Positions 7,832-63,690 of a stretch of 64,000 nucleotides of DNA are shown in pieces. Source of the stretch: Siphonodentalium dalli (Eukaryota > Mollusca > Scaphopoda > Gadilida > Siphonodentaliidae); contig CP136067.1 of NCBI GenBank assembly GCA_032622095.1, positions 77,712,705-77,776,704 of the forward strand, read 5' to 3'. The notes under the pieces were generated by a model. That model searched no databases. It worked only from the letters and a program-made list of their open reading frames with translations, and was not told the DNA's origin. The position numbers and the translations under genes are program-made. The stretch's first letter is position 1. Each line of letters begins with the position of its first letter.

Positions 7832-7854
7832 ATGCAGCATGCATGTCATTACAG

Positions 7855-8093
7855 GTGGCTTCCGCAAGAGAGGAAGACAGACGTACACACGACACCAGAC
7901 ACTCGAACTGGAGAAGGAGTTCCATTTTAACCGATATCTCAAACGTAAACGGAGGACGGACATTTCTCAATCTCTCTATTTATCGGAACGACAGATAAAA
8001 ATATGGTTCCAAAATCGAAGAATGAAAGAGAAAAAGGAATCGCGACAACTAAAAGAATTGAACTTTGGACCAGATGTCAAAGTAGGCAACTGA
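7855..8093 (+). CDS. Hox homeobox exon (terminal exon), Ubx/abd-A/Lox2/Lox4-like
   Basis: The exon follows the acceptor TGCATGTCATTACAG (AG at 7853-7854) and ends at TGA 8091-8093. It encodes a complete 60-residue homeodomain (7863-8042). Helix 1 is [15 protein letters not shown] and helix 3 is [19 protein letters not shown]50, N51, R53 and W48/F49 are intact, so DNA binding should be normal. The tail is 16 residues and contains RQLKELN, similar to the UbdA peptide that follows the homeodomain in Ubx, abd-A, Lox2 and Lox4. Compared with classical Antp-class domains, [19 protein letters not shown] is unusual for helix 2. Glu at position 56 also differs from the common Trp/Leu. The protein is a nuclear patterning transcription factor. 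The upstream exon with the hexapeptide is not in view. Homeobox identity is certain; paralogue assignment is inference. Confidence 0.95.
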
Positions 8094-36524: not shown

Positions 36525-36812
36525 CACACCACCCGTCAACACCCGTCCACACCACCCGTCAACACCACCCGTACAACCCTGTAATATGTGAGGAAGGGCG
36601 GTAATGGACGGGCTGCACACAGTTAACACATTATATACCGAATGGATTCATTTTTTCAATTCTTTAATCTCAATAAACCAAAAAACATGGTATGTGAGAT
36701 ATACAAATTTAAATACAGATACATAAAAAAGCACATTTTAAACAGGTACATAATTATATAATAGTATATGTAATATTAATGCATTCATTGAAGGCACATC
36801 CACCCAAAACAG
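36525..36812. mobile_element. 0.29-kb insertion splitting LINE relic B
   Basis: The protein breaks off after MKILLNN and resumes at ETSTKFLGIHIDE, segments that are adjacent in related LINEs. The inserted DNA has one end with four units of about 13 bp (minus strand ACGGGTGGTGTTG and variants) and an otherwise AT-rich body. The exact ends are uncertain by about 20 bp and no clear terminal repeats were found. It may be a small non-autonomous element. Confidence 0.65.
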
Positions 36813-37606
36813 AGGGTTATTTAAGAGAATTTTCATAGTGCTCCATTTGGTGTCGTTATTTTCCGGGTGCATGAGCATATAATTGCTCTTTTCTGAGTTT
36901 ATAGAAAGCTTATTGCAGCAACACCAGGTGTATATATTACGTAGTTCATTGTTCATATAGCTTTCAATTTGAGTACCGTTATCCCCGCTAGTCATTAAGG
37001 TGGTATCATCTGCGTAAGACAATATATTCATGCTTGTCGCGTTTGGCATATCGTTAGCGTAGATTAAAAAAATTATGGAGCCGAGTATGGAGCCTTGAGG
37101 GACTCCGCACGTTATGTCCATTAGTTTGGATTTATTTCCCTGTAGTTCAACATATTGTCGTCTGTTGTCTAGATAGCTTTGGAACCAAGATAGGGCAGTA
37201 CCCCTTATCCCGTAATGATATAATTTTGAAATTAATATATCATGATTTATAGTGTCAAATGCTTTAGAGAGGTCTAGGAATAGTGCTATTGTTGAATCCC
37301 TGGTTGTTTTATCATTGTTATTGGCTATTTGGTCGAGAAGATGTACGATTGGATGAAAAGTAGAGTGGTTTGGACGGAAGCCATATTGGTGCTTGTACAA
37401 AATATCGTGCTCAGTTAAAAAATATAATAGGCGTTTTTGCATTATTCGTTCTAATAGCTTGGAAAAAGTAGGTAGGATGCTGATTGGTCTGTTGTTGGAA
37501 ATTTCGTGAGCATTGTTATTTTTTGGTATTGGAACAACCTTTGCTATTTTCATCTTTTCTGGGACAATTCCTTGTTCAAATGAGAGGTTAAATATATGTG
37601 CATTTT
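36813..37606 (-). pseudogene. LINE relic B reverse transcriptase, catalytic motifs intact
   Basis: Continuous open frame with all main RT blocks: NNRPISILPTFSKLLERIM, YGFRPNHST, LFLDLSKAFDTINHDILISK (motif A Asp present), CGVPQGSILGSIIFLIYAND (motif B) and LSYADDTTLM (motif C with both Asp). RT would copy the element RNA at the target site. The frame runs on into the insertion and stops at 36738. The N-terminus is missing through truncation, so it cannot work alone. Confidence 0.9.
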
Positions 37607-38095: not shown

Positions 38096-39238
38096 CTATG
38101 TTGAGGTGACATTCGAGGTTTTTAAATGTGACGGCCTGTGTGCATACGTTGTGTAGCATCCTGGGCGGCGATTGCGATTGCCCTTTCTCGAGCATAAAAA
38201 CACTTCTACAAACTTCGCCCTGAACTTCGCCCCAGTGAGGAAATAAAAAAAGAAATTGACCGCATGATTGCATGCACTTAACGTCATAACGATGGTGCTT
38301 GCCAATCTAACTTTAGCGTTCAATAGCAGGTCTCCCTGAACTAATTTCATGTCGGCTTGTGTTTGCCAAATAACATAAATTGCATTTGGAAATGTGAGGA
38401 ACACGAACGAAACGGTTACACCAAGAATCATGTGTGTAATTTGCTGTTGTCGATTGATTTTGCTCTGAAGTTCCATTCGGTTGGACATCTCCTGCTGCAG
38501 GCGACGAGCATCGGATATTCCCTTGATTAGAAGACCGTTCAGCACAATCATGAACACGCATGGTCCGATTGCATAGAATATTGCATCAACCCAGTTCCAT
38601 GGTCCATTGTAAAACTCCTTTGCTTCCTCGCGTACCTGGCAGTTCAAGCCATATCGTTTATCTTCTGTGTCGACACAAAGAACAGCCCACCAGTAATATC
38701 CCGTCAGGCCACATGAAAACGCGAACAATGTCGCCATGATGACCAATGCCAACTCTTTAGTGAGGTAACGGTTTGCCTTGAACGGAAACCATATTGCAAA
38801 GAATCGCTCTGTTGTCATGGCAACCAGTACCCAATTTGCGTAAATCATCGTGGTTTCCAATGTGGTCCAGAGAAACTTACATGATGCATCATTTAGAAAG
38901 ATATCGTAATAATTAAACTTCTTTAGTAACAGGTTCGATAGCAACGCCGTCGTGTCAACTACGGCGAGACACATGACATAGAGAGATGATGGCGTTAGTG
39001 GCTTCATGTTGGCTATAGTAATTATTGAAATAATGTTTCCTGGAACACCGATTGCAGACAGTATGTACAGATATTTGTCGTGTAAGTGGTAAGCAACAAT
39101 AAACTGCCAATACTGCTCTATCGGGCCGTAACCCAGTTCCCAAGGACTTTGTGTCGTCGCCGGAAATGTGGAGTTATCCCCCGTATCGTTCTCGAAGGCG
39201 GTGATGGTTTGTTGTGCGAATCTGTCTGTTGTTGTCAT
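38096..39238 (-). CDS. Rhodopsin-class G protein-coupled receptor, orphan, neuropeptide-receptor-like
   Basis: An intact 380-residue protein in one coding exon. The start is ATG 39238-39236; an in-frame stop lies shortly upstream. The N-terminus has NDTGDNSTF, with likely N-glycosylation sites. Seven hydrophobic segments follow in order: YLYILSAIGVPGNIISIITI (TM1 with GN), SLYVMCLAVVDTTALLSNLL (TM2), a Cys before TM3, MTTERFFAIWFPF at the end of TM3 (TERF in place of DRY), VIMATLFAFSCGLTGYYWW (TM4), AIFYAIGPCVFMIVLNGLL (TM5 with Pro), MILGVTVSFVFLTFPNAIYV (TM6) and SACNHAVNFFFYFLTGAKFR (TM7, NHAVNFFFY replacing NPxxY). The TM3 Cys and a Cys in the loop after TM4 can form the usual disulfide. 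The FFFYFLTGAKFR end resembles the large set of lophotrochozoan orphan peptide receptors. The ligand is unknown. It acts at the plasma membrane. Confidence 0.95.
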   Translation of the reverse strand: MTTTDRFAQQTITAFENDTGDNSTFPATTQSPWELGYGPIEQYWQFIVAYHLHDKYLYILSAIGVPGNIISIITIANMKPLTPSSLYVMCLAVVDTTALLSNLLLKKFNYYDIFLNDASCKFLWTTLETTMIYANWVLVAMTTERFFAIWFPFKANRYLTKELALVIMATLFAFSCGLTGYYWWAVLCVDTEDKRYGLNCQVREEAKEFYNGPWNWVDAIFYAIGPCVFMIVLNGLLIKGISDARRLQQEMSNRMELQSKINRQQQITHMILGVTVSFVFLTFPNAIYVIWQTQADMKLVQGDLLLNAKVRLASTIVMTLSACNHAVNFFFYFLTGAKFRAKFVEVFLCSRKGNRNRRPGCYTTYAHRPSHLKTSNVTST

Positions 39239-39266
39239 CCTCAATATCGATCAACGACAAGCATAC
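39239..39266 (-). promoter_or_regulatory. 5' UTR end with splice acceptor for the GPCR gene
   Basis: On the minus strand TTTCCTTTTCTGCAG is a strong acceptor. It would start the coding exon at 39266, 28 nt upstream of the ATG, so the GPCR probably has a 5' UTR intron and a promoter further upstream (higher coordinates). Confidence 0.55.
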
Positions 39267-57183: not shown

Positions 57184-57261
57184 ATAATCATATGTTGCAC
57201 TCCTGACGAGCATATAAGTGGAAATATAACACATTTCCCTATTTGGGAAAGAGATAAACCA

Positions 57262-57555
57262 ACTGGCACACATAAAAGAGCCCAACATAAAACCAGAACA
57301 TGTATTGCCTCGTTGGATGGGTGATAGATGTATGAATGTGATTCTATGATAATAACTGTTTCTATGATTTTGCTGCCTCTAAATATGCTTAAAAGCTCGG
57401 ATGGCACACAACTGGCACACATAAAAGAGCCCAAAATAAAACCAGAACATGTATTGCCTCGTTGGATGGGTGATAGATGTATGAATGTGATTCTATGATA
57501 ATAACTGTTTCTATGATTTTGCTGCCTCTAAATATGCTTAAAGGCTCGGATGGCC
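57262..57555. repeat. Two tandem 149-bp units
   Basis: ACTGGCACACATAAAAGAGC starts at 57262 and again at 57411. The copies differ at very few positions, so the duplication is recent. Confidence 0.95.
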
Positions 57556-57639
57556 TTCTTAAAGGTTATAATTTAGAAGTAACATTTACCAAATTATGAA
57601 AATTACTTTCATTTCAAACATTTTACCTATAAATTGTGG

Positions 57640-57785
57640 GCTGCAGTGTGTGCCGATGGAATACTAGTGAAATGGAAGATGGCTGCTGGTGGCCATGTTT
57701 TTTAACAAATTTCGCAAAAATGTGATAGCTCCCATCTAGTGGGCAACCATATGAAGTTTGGCAAAGAGGGCAAATCTTGATGCCG
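57640..57785 (-). repeat. Dispersed 'CCAAGATGGCTGC' repeat, another copy
   Basis: GTGTGTGCCGATGGAATACT, GAAGATGGCTGCTGGTGG, CCATGTTTTTTAAC and GATAGCTCCCATCTAG occur in the family order, followed by AAGTTTGGCAAAGAGGGCAA. Confidence 0.85.
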
Positions 57786-58272
57786 GTGGGAAAAATTAAA
57801 TAATGTTACAGGCTTAAATAAGGACCATACATACATAGGTGGATTTGTTGCAGAATATTAATAATCGTACATGAATGGTTATTTGGATCCCAAGACTAAA
57901 TAGTTCTGAAGCATGTGAAGAAGACTAACATTACTAATGAGTAGGAGGTTCAATTTCACTAATGAACGGAAGTCAATAGACATTCGAAGTTGTGTCATGT
58001 GGTTTGCACAAGTGCATATATATTATTTGATTGAGAAGGTGTATAGTTATGAACAGACACATGTTGAGACAAACACACTGAAAAGATGACATAATCACAG
58101 AGGAATATAAGTGAGTTATCTCGCACCCACATATGTTTCATGCTATATAACTTATAGAGACTATCATGTCTGAGACTGACCCCCCAACTGGGAACTTAAA
58201 AAAGACCGACATGTGACGATGATGGACAAATGCTAATATAGTGAAAACTAAAGAACCGGCTTACATGACAGT

Positions 58273-58278
58273 TTTATT
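58273..58278 (-). promoter_or_regulatory. Poly(A) signal of the 58-64 kb gene
   Basis: AATAAA (minus strand, in GTAAAATAAAACTGTC) lies 93 nt after the TGA stop at 58371-58373. It is the expected position for a short 3' UTR. Confidence 0.65.
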
Positions 58279-58370
58279 TTACTCAAATAGTGAAATGGAT
58301 GTCTTGTAACTTTGGGACAAGTTCATATTGACGTTTTTCAAACCAAATATCGATGTTTAATGCAACAAGG

Positions 58371-58504
58371 TCAATTAAATAACTCGCATCCCTCATTTTG
58401 GTTGACAAGATTTTCTCTCGAAATCCACTCTGTTTTACCATTGTGCCACTTTACTAAGCATTTCTTTTTTCCAGTTCTCATAACCTGACATGGATATGTT
58501 TCAC
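58371..58504 (-). CDS. Last exon of the 58-64 kb gene: Tudor/chromo-like domain
   Basis: Begins after the acceptor CTTCTCTTTATAG in phase 1 and ends at TGA 58373-58371; 134 nt. It reads GETYPCQVMRTGKKKCLVKW, HNGKTEWISRENLV and NQNEGCELFN. The 'K-x-C-L-V-K-W-x-N-G-x-x-E-W-I-x-x-E-N-L' pattern fits a small SH3-fold module of the Tudor/chromo type. Such modules bind methylated lysine or arginine or nucleic acid. The aromatic residues Y, W and W could make part of a binding cage. Phase, acceptor, stop and poly(A) signal agree, so I am confident of the exon; the domain name is inference. Lys-rich exons precede it, which would suit a nuclear protein. Confidence 0.72.
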
Positions 58505-58931
58505 CTATAAAGAGAAGACAAATTCAATATATTATTACCTATCTCTATGATGATCACTGTCTCTGATTAGGCAAAAGACATCTGACAAATGATCATCCAA
58601 AAATTAAATGACATGGGACTACGATTGTGTCAATTTAATGCTTTCAGTAATGTGATAGATAGCTAGTCACCATGTGTGTAAGATGTAGAATATCTTTTGA
58701 AAATTGTCCACTAACCAACCACCTGGTGTTCACAACAGTGACGTTGGTAAGAGATGATTTCATTCAGAAGTGCGAAAACTATAGTGTACACAGTGCATTT
58801 AGTTCAAAATGCGAAGAGATAATGTATTTTGTCCTTCACAGGCTATTTTGAGATGGAAAGGAAAGATTGGGGGAAATTTTGTGGTCAATGCCTAGAAATA
58901 AGGTCGGTCCGGTTTATGTAATGAGATTCAG

Positions 58932-58991
58932 CTTCTTGTGTTTTCTCTGGGGCTGACCTCTTGGTTTTCTTCACTTTTTTAACGGCAGCAT
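58932..58991 (-). pseudogene. 60-nt Lys-rich exon copy 5 (3'-most), donor lost
   Basis: Encodes DAAVKKVKKTKRSAPEKTQE in phase 1-1. The acceptor CATTCCAG is intact. The donor position reads CT instead of GT (GAAG|CTGAATC), so it probably cannot be spliced as an internal exon unless another donor is used. The coding sequence has no stop. Confidence 0.6.
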
Positions 58992-59542
58992 CTGGAATGA
59001 TTATCATAATATATGGGTGAGCTTACAAGATCAAAATTTACGCAAGGTAATATATTATTATCCAACCATTTATATCGCTGTTTCTGATTGGGTGATTGAC
59101 ATTTGACACATGATCATCGAAATATTTTTGTGACATGGGACTCCGCAAATATCATAATGGATTCTTGGCATAAACCCGTTCACTATTTCTATCCATAATA
59201 TCCACCATTATAGGTCAGGTTAGAGGTAAACAATTTGTTTTTTATTTTGTATATAAAAGACTGCAAAATCCACACTCGTATCAATTACAGGCCGGAATCC
59301 ACTGTCAGATAAATTGGTGAGTCGAGTACAGCAAACCAATCTAATGCTTTCAATAATGACAGATAGCTAGTCACCGTGTTTGTAACTTGTAGAATATCCT
59401 TTGAAAATGATCCACTGAGTCTGACCATCTGGTGTTCACAACAGTTAATTTTGTCAAGGATGTGGATTTCATTCAGTGCATTTGCTTGTGATCTATGTTA
59501 TCAGTTGTATAATCAGTTATCAGTTATAATAATGATATTCAC

Positions 59543-59602
59543 CTTCTTGTGTTTTCTCTGGGGCTGACCTCTTGGTTTTCTTCATTTTTTTATTGGCAGC
59601 AT
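59543..59602 (-). CDS. 60-nt Lys-rich exon copy 4
   Basis: Phase 1-1 exon with acceptor CATTCCAG and donor GTGAAT, encoding DAANKKMKKTKRSAPEKTQE. The KK-x-KKTKR stretch looks like a nuclear localisation or nucleic-acid-contact sequence. Differs from the next copy at one residue (Met for Leu). Confidence 0.68.
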
Positions 59603-60142
59603 CTGGAATGATTGCGAAAAAAAATGATCATAATATATGGGTGAGCTTACACCATCCAAATTTACACAAGGAAATATATAATATCCACCCCTTAAACTAT
59701 CGATGTTTCTGATTATTGGGTGATAGACATTTGACACATGACAATCAAAATATTTGTGACACGGGACTCCGAAAGTATAATATTGGATTTTTCACATAAA
59801 CACTTTCACTATCTATATCTATATTATCAACTTTTGTGGGTGCAAAAGATTTTTGTTCACAAAAGACTGCACTATCCTCACTCGTGTCAATTACAGTCCG
59901 GAATCCAATGTCAGACAACTGGTGAGTCGAGTGCAATAAACCAATTTAATGCTTTCAATAATGACAGAGAGCTAATCACCGTGTTTGTAACTTGTAGAAT
60001 ATCCTTTGAAAATGATCCACTGAGTCTGACCATCTGGTATTCACACCAGTTAATTTGGTCAAGGATGTGGATTTCATTCAGTGTATTTGCTTGTGATCTA
60101 TGTTATCAGTTGTATAAAGGTTTATATAATAATGATATTCAC

Positions 60143-60202
60143 CTTCTTGTGTTTTCTCTGGGGCTGACCTCTTGGTTTTCTTCAATTTTTTATTGGCAGC
60201 AT
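60143..60202 (-). CDS. 60-nt Lys-rich exon copy 3
   Basis: Phase 1-1 exon with intact acceptor and donor, encoding DAANKKLKKTKRSAPEKTQE. It lies exactly 600 bp from copy 4. Skipping or including it keeps the frame. Confidence 0.68.
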
Positions 60203-60492
60203 CTGGAATGATTGCGAAAAAAATGATCATAATATATGGGTGAGCTTGCACCATCCAAATTTACACAAGGAAATATATTATTATCCACCCCTTTACTATC
60301 GCTGTTTCTGATTATTGGGTGATAGACATTTGACACATGACAATCAAAATATTTGTGACACGGGACTCCGAAAGTATAATATTGGATTTTTCACATAAAC
60401 ACTTTCACTATCTATATCTATATTATCCACTTTTGTGGGTGCAAAAGTTTTGTTATCAGTTGTATAAAGGTTTATATAATAATGATATTCAC

Positions 60493-60552
60493 CTTCTTGT
60501 GTTTTCTCTGGGGCTGACCTCTTGGTTTTCTTCAATTTTTTATTGGCAGCAT
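60493..60552 (-). CDS. 60-nt Lys-rich exon copy 2
   Basis: Identical in protein to copy 3, with the same splice sites. It lies 350 bp from copy 3 because the intervening unit has a deletion. Confidence 0.68.
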
Positions 60553-60902
60553 CTGGAATGATTGCGAAAAAAAAATGATCATAATATATGGGTGAGCTTG
60601 CACCATCCAAATTTACACAAGGAAATATATTATTATCCACCCCTTTACTATCGCTGTTTCTGATTATTGGGTGATAGACATTTGACACATGACAATCAAA
60701 ATATTTGTGACACGGGACTCCGAAAGTATAATATTGGATTTTTCACATAAACACTTTCACTATCTATATCTATATTATCCACTTTTGTTGGTGCAAAAGT
60801 TTTTTGTTCACAAAAGACTGCACTATCCTCATTCGTATCAATTTGGCCAAGGATGTGCATTTGATTGTGATCTTTTTATATCTATATACTACTGATAATC
60901 AA

Positions 60903-60962
60903 CTTCTTATGTTTTCTCTGGGGATGACCTCTTGGTTTTCTTCACTTTGTTATCAGCAGCAT
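60903..60962 (-). pseudogene. 60-nt Lys-rich exon copy 1, decayed
   Basis: The acceptor CATTCCAG remains. The coding sequence starts DAADNKVKKTKRSSPEKT but then has an in-frame TAA. The donor reads TT (GAAG|TTGATT) instead of GT. Both defects point to loss of use. Confidence 0.72.
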
Positions 60963-61690
60963 CTGGAATGATTGCGAAAAATAATTTAAGTTTAGCTGTA
61001 ACTTGCAATAATGTATTACATTTTCTCAAATTGGGAATTCTGATCTGTCCAATAACTAGATGTATTGCATATACTACGTGTTACTTAATGTATTACAAAT
61101 ATTGAGGGATTGATCTCTGATAATGAGTATGTGTGTAGAAGTAATATATTTATATATATACACACACTATCACTGAAACATAAACCAGGTTATAACCTAC
61201 AATACAAATCAACGAATTACAACATTTTAGATTCGAGTATAAGATTACTTGACCACCAGTTCAAGCCCAGCCCTGTTGATTAGCAGAAATATGCCTAGGC
61301 TAAACCATTCCCTAGGACAGGATCTACATAATTGCATGCTCTACGCACACAGCTCTCAAAATTAGGAAAAATGTCCCATGGCAAATTTAAGGCTGTGGCA
61401 TTATAGATTCCACGTGTTGCCACAGCCTTTCCCACAGCATTGCTTATTGCTGTGGCCATTCTTTTCAATATAACTTCATTTTACAACTGGAACTTGGTCC
61501 ATTATCACATCAAACTTTGTTTGGGTCTGGCTAAAAATTGCTGATTTAATATCAAGATAGTCCTTGTTATATCAGTAATTCTTGGCATTCATCAATGAAC
61601 TTTTGCTGTCTTTAACGATTTATCGTGAATTCAATGTATCACAATACACTTTCATACGCGTATTGTATCGTGTCATGTGTACATTCTTAC

Positions 61691-61774
61691 CTTTCCGTTT
61701 CTTGTTGGATGCATGCATGTCCTGCAGTATTTTGATCACAACGTCAGGTGGTTCCACGTGGAGTTCTGAGATTA
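61691..61774 (-). CDS. Internal exon of the 58-64 kb gene
   Basis: 84 nt, phase 1-1, between the consensus acceptor TTTTTTTCCAG and the consensus donor GTAAGA. It encodes VISELHVEPPDVVIKILQDM and HASNKKRK. The acidic/hydrophobic first part could form a helix, and the basic end (NKKRK) continues the Lys-rich character of the next exons. The splice sites are the strongest in this gene. Confidence 0.78.
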
Positions 61775-62782
61775 CTGGAAAAAAAGAACGTACGTTACAT
61801 TAAGTCCAAATGTCTGCGAGAAATTAAATCAAACACTATTCATTGCATATTTTAGTTTTTTTGGCAGCCATTTGCAGAACTATTTTTTTATCGTGTGAAG
61901 AACCAAAACAACATAAATATTATTCAGCCATGTTTGCAATAATCTGAGACATAAATACTCAATACTAATTCATCTTTTCCAACGTTTATTTTGTTTTTGG
62001 TGATTTTTCCGCCAAAAAAATAGTCCTGCAAATGGCTACCAAAAAATTAATATACTACTAATTACTAGTATGCAATGAAAAATGTTTTAATTATTTTCTC
62101 GCAGACAGCAATGATTTCAGATGGTAGACGGAGCGCATACCCAGTTGGGGTTATAAGCTAAATACTGCAGTGTTTTGGCAAATATTTCCTGTCAACTCTC
62201 TATTGACCTACCTCAATAATAGTTTTTTTTTTTAAACCACATTTTTAAATAATTCAGACATATCTCTGGTATTGTGAGTGTGAACAGGTGTTGTTATAGT
62301 ACTATATAATACGTTGGTTATAGTGCTTTTCCCCTCCAAATTAACAGTTTGAAATTGAGATTTTTTGAAAATCCACGAATGAGGCGCCTCCTTAAACACC
62401 ACCCAGTGACTGGCATGAATATGGACCTTTGGCCATATAATCAATATATAAAGTACCTATTGAATGTCAGTGGAGTTTAAACTCTTTCAGTGCCAGAGAA
62501 TCCTAAGTTTTTCACTTTTCAGCAATTGTTATAAATTCCTGGTTGTGGTTCTGGGTCTTAAAATGCCAAAAATAATTGACCCAGGTGCTTGTTTTCCATA
62601 AAATAATTTTTTTTTCAAAAAATAATTCAGCCATTTTTAGGGCCAATCTAATCGGACTTGGCACTCAAAGAGTTAAGTTGTGTTGAAATCAAATACCAGT
62701 ATTATTTGTGACACTCCCATGTGGCAAGAAATCTGAAATAAATATCCATTTAAGGAATGGAATAATGTATATGAATTAATAC

Positions 62783-62903
62783 CTGTATTAATTAATTTTG
62801 ATGTATCGGCTTCTGTCTCAATAATTGAGATGTCTTCGGACTCGTAAATGTCATCGAACTCAGAGTTCACAGGCAATGGGAAATAAGATGATTCAGCTTC
62901 CTT
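62783..62903 (-). CDS. Internal exon of the 58-64 kb gene, acidic
   Basis: 121 nt, encoding KEAESSYFPLPVNSEFDD, IYESEDISIIETEADTS and KLINT, ending in phase 1 at the donor GTATTA. The acceptor CATCCTCTGCCATAG gives a phase-0 start. The upstream Pro/Gln repeat is in the same frame but separated by that TAG. The run of Asp/Glu contrasts with the Lys-rich exons downstream. The phase-0 entry does not fit the phase-1 exit of the exon at 63520, so a further exon or another boundary is missing. Confidence 0.6.
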
Positions 62904-62916
62904 CTATGGCAGAGGA

Positions 62917-63021
62917 TGCGGTTGAGGTTGTGGTTGAGGTAGAGGTTGTGGTTGAGGCTGTGGTTGAGGTTGAAGTTGTGGTTGAGGGTGTGGTTGAGGC
63001 TGTGGTTGAGGCTGTGGTTTA
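62917..63021 (-). repeat. Hexanucleotide-based repeat translating as Pro-Gln
   Basis: On the minus strand CAGCCTCAACCACAACCTCA-type units give (PQ)n with occasional H and L in one frame. An acceptor-like TTGTTTTACAG lies just before it (near 63040). The frame runs into TAG immediately before the acidic exon. It may be an intronic pyrimidine-rich tract, or a coding PQ tract cut by a stop. Confidence 0.85.
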
Positions 63022-63519
63022 GGCCGAGGATGACACCTGTAAAACAATCTTCATTGATAACATTACCAAATAGTGAACTAACTTCACTAATTAACAGAAC
63101 TTCAACTTTGATGATTCCAACTGACTAAATTAAAGTAATATATATTAGATAACTTTGGCACCGAGGATATTAAGGCTAGCCTGGCCATTATAACAAAATG
63201 CCAGGGAAAGCTCTATGTAGTTTTTCACCACTGAAAGGGACTCGCACTAATTTAGTGAAATACGGCTACACAAAGAGCCGCTTCATAATCCATGAATGCA
63301 TAGACTGATGATAGTTCAGAATCATGTCTAAAATTCAACACTCATTTTGCAAACTGTAAAAGGTATATAAAAACACAAGACAAATTAAAAAACAAATCAT
63401 TTGTAAAAAATTCTAATGTTTTGTTGAAAATATAGAAATAAATTACAGGTCGACCCTAAATTTCGGCAGGTTGGTCAGGTAACTGGAAACGTTCATGTTT
63501 TTTGCCTAACTATACTTAC

Positions 63520-63690
63520 ATGACATTTCTAATTTCTAAATGTTCAGCTGCCAGGACGAGATTACACTTTCTTGAGCCCATATTTGAGGATCACTAATAT
63601 CCATGTCAGCTGGATAACCAATGATATCAAGGGTGATCTTGCCATCTTTGATATCTTGATTTGGCATTCCTCCTGTTTGTCCAGCCCTGG
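63520..63690 (-). pseudogene. Upstream exon of the 58-64 kb gene with an in-frame TAG
   Basis: Acceptor GTTTTTTTTATAG and strong donor GTAAGTATAG bound 171 nt in phase 1-1. The residues read GQTGGMPNQDIKDGKITLDI, IGYPADMDISDPQIWAQESV and ISSWQLNI, then TAG, then KLEMS up to the donor. The composition is clearly protein-like. The TAG would end translation 16 nt before the donor. Options are a terminal exon of a shorter form, a disabled gene, or a sequence error. The family is not recognised. Confidence 0.58.

Follow-up and report, generated by a model that had tools for sequence, protein, structure and literature searches.

Tandem exon duplication has been described in animal genes. In PMC9013439 and PMC12343006, adjacent homologous exons of one gene are formed by genomic duplication, and unannotated or degenerate copies lie alongside them; both features were found at the present locus. 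Compared with the duplications described there, the predicted exon at this locus was very short and basic and was present five times; two of the copies were decayed, and one pair was very recent. Furthermore, the PEVK region of titin, as presented in PMC6469411, has in common with this locus an array of short exons, a low-complexity lysine-bearing stretch, and growth or shrinkage partly by tandem duplication. It was different from titin as presented there in having a KKTKR core, a predicted end resembling a small SH3/chromo-like domain and a host-gene part without a titin-type domain. The comparison with titin covered the 3′ part of the gene, which was all that lay within the window (the whole 64-kb stretch of DNA analyzed), and none of the host-gene pieces scanned there matched a Pfam family at its curated cut-off. 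In a literature search, no paper matched three or more of the four terms chosen for a lysine-rich exon array. Most likely, the locus is a tandem exon duplication of a known and ordinary kind, in a possibly nuclear protein.

The repeat search of 57500-62500 revealed five in-register copies, starting at 58890, 59501, 60101, 60451 and 60861. Repeat families, self-blastn and unit alignment together placed the tandem array at 58553-60984, with approximate edges, and divided it into five units, each consisting of an exon plus its downstream intron. In transcript order, from A to E, the spacings of the units were 410, 350, 600 and 611 bp, in agreement with the original prediction of five tandem copies 350-611 bp apart. 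Neighboring copies were homologous in both exon and intron, and the copy geometry and phases also bore out the claim of a symmetric 60-nt phase 1-1 exon multiplied by tandem genomic duplication. The array matched nowhere else in the 64-kb window when 57500-62500 was compared with it by blastn (E up to 1e-5), and the blastn matches outside this region were traced to sequence near 57.5-57.7 kb, not to the array. With a probability of about 0.7, the locus is a real tandem exon duplication, in which decayed outer and apparently usable inner cassettes in a minus-strand gene would change a basic linker.

All five copies were on the minus strand, and AATCATTCCAG preceded each of them. Copy B (60493-60552) and copy C (60143-60202), recognized by splice sites and unit alignment, were intact 60-nt phase 1-1 exons of identical sequence, and copy D (59543-59602) was an intact exon of the same length and phase, one base and one residue (L to M) off B and C. 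The peptide was DAANKK followed by L, L and M in B, C and D, respectively, and then by KKTKRSAPEKTQE, so that B and C read DAANKKLKKTKRSAPEKTQE and D read DAANKKMKKTKRSAPEKTQE. It contained 6 lysines in 20 residues, including the KKTKR core, which we take to fit the monopartite nuclear signal K-K/R-X-K/R. The three copies kept both splice sites, with GAAG|GTGAAT at the end of the exon. Copy A (60903-60962) was decayed: its peptide read DAADNKVKKTKRSSPEKT, then a stop (TAA at codon 19), then E, and TTGATT stood at the donor position. Copy E (58932-58991), with the peptide DAAVKKVKKTKRSAPEKTQE, was also decayed, with CTGAAT at the donor position and the polypyrimidine tract lost. Accordingly, the earlier description of three intact and nearly identical copies, a first copy with a stop and without a donor, and a last copy without a donor ('first' and 'last' referring to transcript order) was accurate for each copy; the loss of the polypyrimidine tract in E had been overlooked. 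In copy E, the frame continued open for 15 codons past the old exon end into the former intron and then reached a stop. A terminal exon of this form was considered for copy E as possible, but support for it was not found. In addition, AATAAA was observed 8 nt into the exon in all three intact cassettes (60544, 60194 and 59594, minus strand) and was absent from the decayed A and E.

The splice signals were ranked by a simple score of our own making over the sites in the window. Both strands together gave 5966 scored AG sites; the three intact copies had acceptors in the top 0.64% of these, A in the top 1.96%, and E in the top 8.11%. The acceptor of E was weak because about 14 nt, including the T tract, were missing in front of it, and this broken acceptor was a derived loss, since A had the T tract in common with B, C and D. 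For the donors, the first base was T in A, C in E and G in the three intact copies; the loss path and the gain path each needed two changes. The favored explanation was that GT was lost at both edges, in A and E, rather than gained in the ancestor of B, C and D. The claim that the locus shows an exon array being born and decaying at its edges was thus upheld as regards the broken outer copies and the recent B/C duplication; as regards donor loss versus GT gain, the count was two steps either way.

A non-coding tandem repeat carrying a chance open stretch was considered as well, because low divergence reached beyond the exon in the C-D pair and 5′ of the exon in the D-E pair. We regard this as highly improbable, because the splice scores and the phase agreed with each other and with the predicted exons on either side. 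Moreover, across the 64 kb, the minus strand had five phase 1-1 open segments of 30-300 nt and the plus strand had 0. The five comprised the intact cassettes B, C and D and a predicted 84-nt exon, which was counted with two alternative acceptors; they came to four distinct exons, all at this locus. In 60 Markov-1 simulations of one 64-kb strand, the mean was 0.08 and the maximum 1 per strand. The score limits for this count were set just below the scores of these same exons and were partly circular; since they were drawn from the tested exons themselves, the segment count was supportive, not independent.

The youngest event of the predicted exon array was a duplication seen as two units of 350 and 353 bp at 60101-60803, recognized by its junctions and by TRF (period 352, 99% matches). 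The introns of B and C differed at 3 of 290 columns. The intron divergence was 13.0% between C and D (10.9% after masking doubtful columns) and 23.4% between D and E (17.3% after masking), and the C-D divergence was mosaic. The A and B introns differed at 10 of 200 columns, which was low because the young duplication ends within the downstream intron of A. As far as mosaic distances can say, B/C would be the newest step, the split of C and D would have come earlier, and E and A would be the oldest. Within 2.4 kb, the locus offers a compact view of exon amplification: decayed copies at the edges, intact copies in the middle, and a single unit of very recent origin.

The divergence of the exon was compared with that of the aligned intron in all ten pairs of copies; the pairs have copies in common and are not independent. 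The exon diverged less in six of the ten (A-E, B-D, B-E, C-D, C-E and D-E; two-sided p below 0.01), and for A-D the unmasked two-sided p was 0.067. When six pairs were retested one-sided after masking, five were below 0.02 and A-D was at 0.13. The contrast was not significant for A-B, A-C and B-C. Between A and the copies B and C, the exon was more different (10%) than the intron (5.0% and 7.0%, respectively), again without significance, because part of the downstream intron of A came with the young duplication.

With 60-nt flanks, six pairs were tested; the flank alignments held 2 to 26 gaps, and misalignment may make part of the flank difference. The exon was less divergent than the 3′ flank in A-B, A-E, D-E and C-E. 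The 3′ contrast in B-C was an artefact, because the flank of B crosses the duplication junction. Against the 5′ flank, the exon was less divergent in A-B and A-E only, and these contrasts were not between homologues, since most of the 5′ flank of A lies outside the repeat. The exon was no different from the 5′ flank in D-E and C-E, and no different from either flank in C-D. Hence the comparison of exon with intron in each unit, which the original prediction had put forward as a check, came out as expected on the 3′ side of those four pairs; it failed on the 5′ side of D-E and C-E and on both sides of C-D, and was reversed, not significantly, in A-B and A-C when the whole unit was compared.

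When C, D and E were scanned with a sliding window, 3 columns varied in the window on the exon, against 6 or more in each of the non-overlapping windows. With only C and D in the scan, the exon had 1 variable column, and in parts of the intron the count fell to 0. The D and E exons differed by 3 bases in 2 codons, both of which changed the amino acid, with 0 silent changes. Wherever the exons of B, D and E differed, the amino acid was altered and no change was silent, and selection on the peptide was not visible with so few changes. Judged from these alignments, constraint on the exon plus its acceptor is likely, and patchy exchange between units may be a part-cause of the divergence pattern.

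The copies sat between predicted exons of one gene, all in phase 1. An 84-nt phase 1-1 exon encoding V-ISELHVEPPDVVIKILQDMHASNKKRK-G was predicted at 61691-61774 on the minus strand, with its acceptor in the top 0.45% and its donor in the top 0.05% of the window sites. Directly 5′ of it, at 61811-62107, an imperfect fold-back repeat of about 300 bp was observed, which is perhaps a MITE, although this is a guess. On the other side of the array, the coding part of a predicted terminal exon, (G)ETYPCQVMRTGKKKCLVKWHNGKTEWISRENLVNQNEGCELFN plus stop, lay at 58371-58504 on the minus strand. Its phase-1 acceptor, TTGTCTTCTCTTTATAG, just before 58504, was in the top 0.12% of the scored AG sites. The phase-1 frame was open for 43 codons up to a stop at 58373-58371, and the other two frames stopped after 0 and 8 codons. 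An AATAAA at 58273-58278 (minus strand), about 93 nt past the stop of the predicted terminal exon, was a candidate poly(A) signal. Further upstream in the gene, an open frame ending in phase 1 marked a probable coding segment of 121 nt at 62783-62903 (minus strand), running from KEAESS to ETEADTSKLINT and a G. Its donor, ACAG|gtatta, was weak (top 6.2% of scored GT sites), and its acceptor at 62903 was uncertain (top 8.5% of AG sites). This segment joined the 84-nt exon in frame. The joined predicted frame of segment, 84-nt exon, cassettes and terminal exon was open whether it held 0 cassettes, a single one (B or D) or all 3, as had been anticipated from the symmetry of the exon, which allows the copy number to change without a frameshift; the inclusion of A brought in a stop.

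The upstream part of the gene was less regular. An in-frame TAG at 62904-62906, immediately before the KEAESS segment, split the frame made up of a PQ-rich part and the KEAESS part, and an apparent frame break was found between about 63590 and 63540, upstream of that segment. A short-unit tandem repeat at 62912-63023 was seen to read PQPQ on the minus strand and was followed by the in-frame TAG. These irregularities may reflect damage to the host gene in this assembly or an error in the upstream model. These two defects, together with the stop in A, the donors missing from A and E, and the failure of the scanned host-gene pieces to reach any Pfam family at cut-off, would also suit a pseudogene or decaying copy, in which an exon that was once real would merely have been repeated passively in tandem. 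However, the upstream gene model is a guess and may be wrong, and the 84-nt, B, C, D and terminal exons had splice signals in the top 1% and a common open frame, so a decaying host gene is considered unlikely. Overall, the interpretation in the original prediction was partly supported.

Mutual exclusion usually acts on homologous exons that lie in tandem and agree in length and phase, and the copies could for this reason form a cluster from which one is chosen per transcript. Nevertheless, the usable copies did not encode distinct variants: the peptides of B and C were the same and that of D was one residue off, so that the choice would change almost nothing. A and E differed more but had no donors. 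Moreover, 60 nt is frame-neutral and thus sets no frame barrier to joint inclusion. A cluster of mutually exclusive exons was accordingly judged highly improbable. PMC9741552 cautions against equating tandem duplication with mutual exclusion.

The encoded protein was searched against several libraries. Among the host-gene pieces, the lowest Pfam E value (0.0023) came from the PQ tract, which a PARP repeat model matched with 18.4 bits against a cut-off of 100. The 84-nt exon had no sequence match in the PDB and, joined to the upstream segment, no Pfam match; in four further searches with host-gene pieces, the best PDB E values by sequence were 0.58, 0.18, 0.36 and 0.38. A BTB domain around 63519-63687, suspected from a motif, was dropped since Pfam gave no BTB match there. 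The terminal exon had no match in NCBIfam, a bacterial and archaeal library. Rfam gave 0 matches at the gathering score in the window, and the viral contigs gave 14 pattern matches and 0 relatives.

A structure of the terminal exon was modeled from the single sequence with medium confidence (mean pLDDT 69.6). The model showed three strands and a helix, an arrangement which, by fold comparison only, may resemble that of the chromo/SH3-like readers. The best Foldseek match was the Chp2 chromoshadow domain (E 0.2), and a PHF19 chain ranked 16 (E 0.49). None of the 1480 matches reached E 0.001, and the best 50 of the 1480 mixed unrelated folds, including proteasome, penicillin-binding protein and SH3 chains. 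No chromo or Tudor match of the terminal exon was obtained in Pfam. For a domain of the chromo or SH3-like type, this model thus gives a lead at most. We infer that the host protein may be nuclear and that its basic linker may vary in length.

The exon array most likely formed as follows. A 60-nt phase 1-1 exon, flanked in the minus-strand gene by the predicted 84-nt and terminal exons, was duplicated repeatedly in tandem together with its downstream intron, as the homology of the units attests. In the latest step, about 350 bp bearing just one exon with both splice sites was copied. The three inner copies may be cassettes spliceable in any number, the frame being kept in each joined prediction. 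Every cassette would add a 20-residue basic peptide with the KKTKR core, presumably after an acidic segment and an exon ending in NKKRK, and before the small predicted C-terminal domain. The copy number would then alter the length and charge of a nuclear-localizing or nucleic-acid-binding linker. The outermost A and E, which lack splice signals, would now be intron and excluded.

In many marine animals, alleles can differ as much as the members of a pair that are 99% identical. It is conceivable, though very unlikely in our estimate, that the cassette number still varies in the population and sets the length of a basic linker with a nuclear or chromatin-binding role, and that the AATAAA in the exon could rival the true poly(A) site and tie the cassette number to premature 3′ ends. 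If the copy number varies among individuals, the birth of a symmetric exon array and its keeping or loss would be observable.

Several other features were noted in the window. A homeobox frame at 7833-8090 (plus strand) had Ultrabithorax as its best PDB match (E 3.8e-28) and matched the Pfam Homeodomain; the Ultrabithorax alignment extended through the KELN peptide after the homeodomain, which we take to be the Ubd-A parapeptide. This frame is probably a lophotrochozoan Lox2/Lox4 Hox gene, since the Ubd-A parapeptide is given in PMC5103448 as a mark of the lophotrochozoan Lox2 and Lox4; on this ground the DNA itself is probably from a lophotrochozoan. In addition, a rhodopsin-family GPCR open frame of 384 codons lay at 38099-39250 on the minus strand (Pfam 7tm_1, E 2.6e-17), and a reverse transcriptase open frame at 36741-37604 on the same strand (Pfam RVT_1, E 7.6e-35). 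Further frames resembling reverse transcriptase were seen by eye only near 29.1-30.1 kb and 1-2.3 kb. At 53.1-55.9 kb, two stretches (near 53.4-53.8 and 55.2-55.7 kb) held minus-strand open frames that by eye were much alike and are perhaps a separate duplication. Finally, a 149-bp unit was present twice at 57260-57554, with 98% matches.
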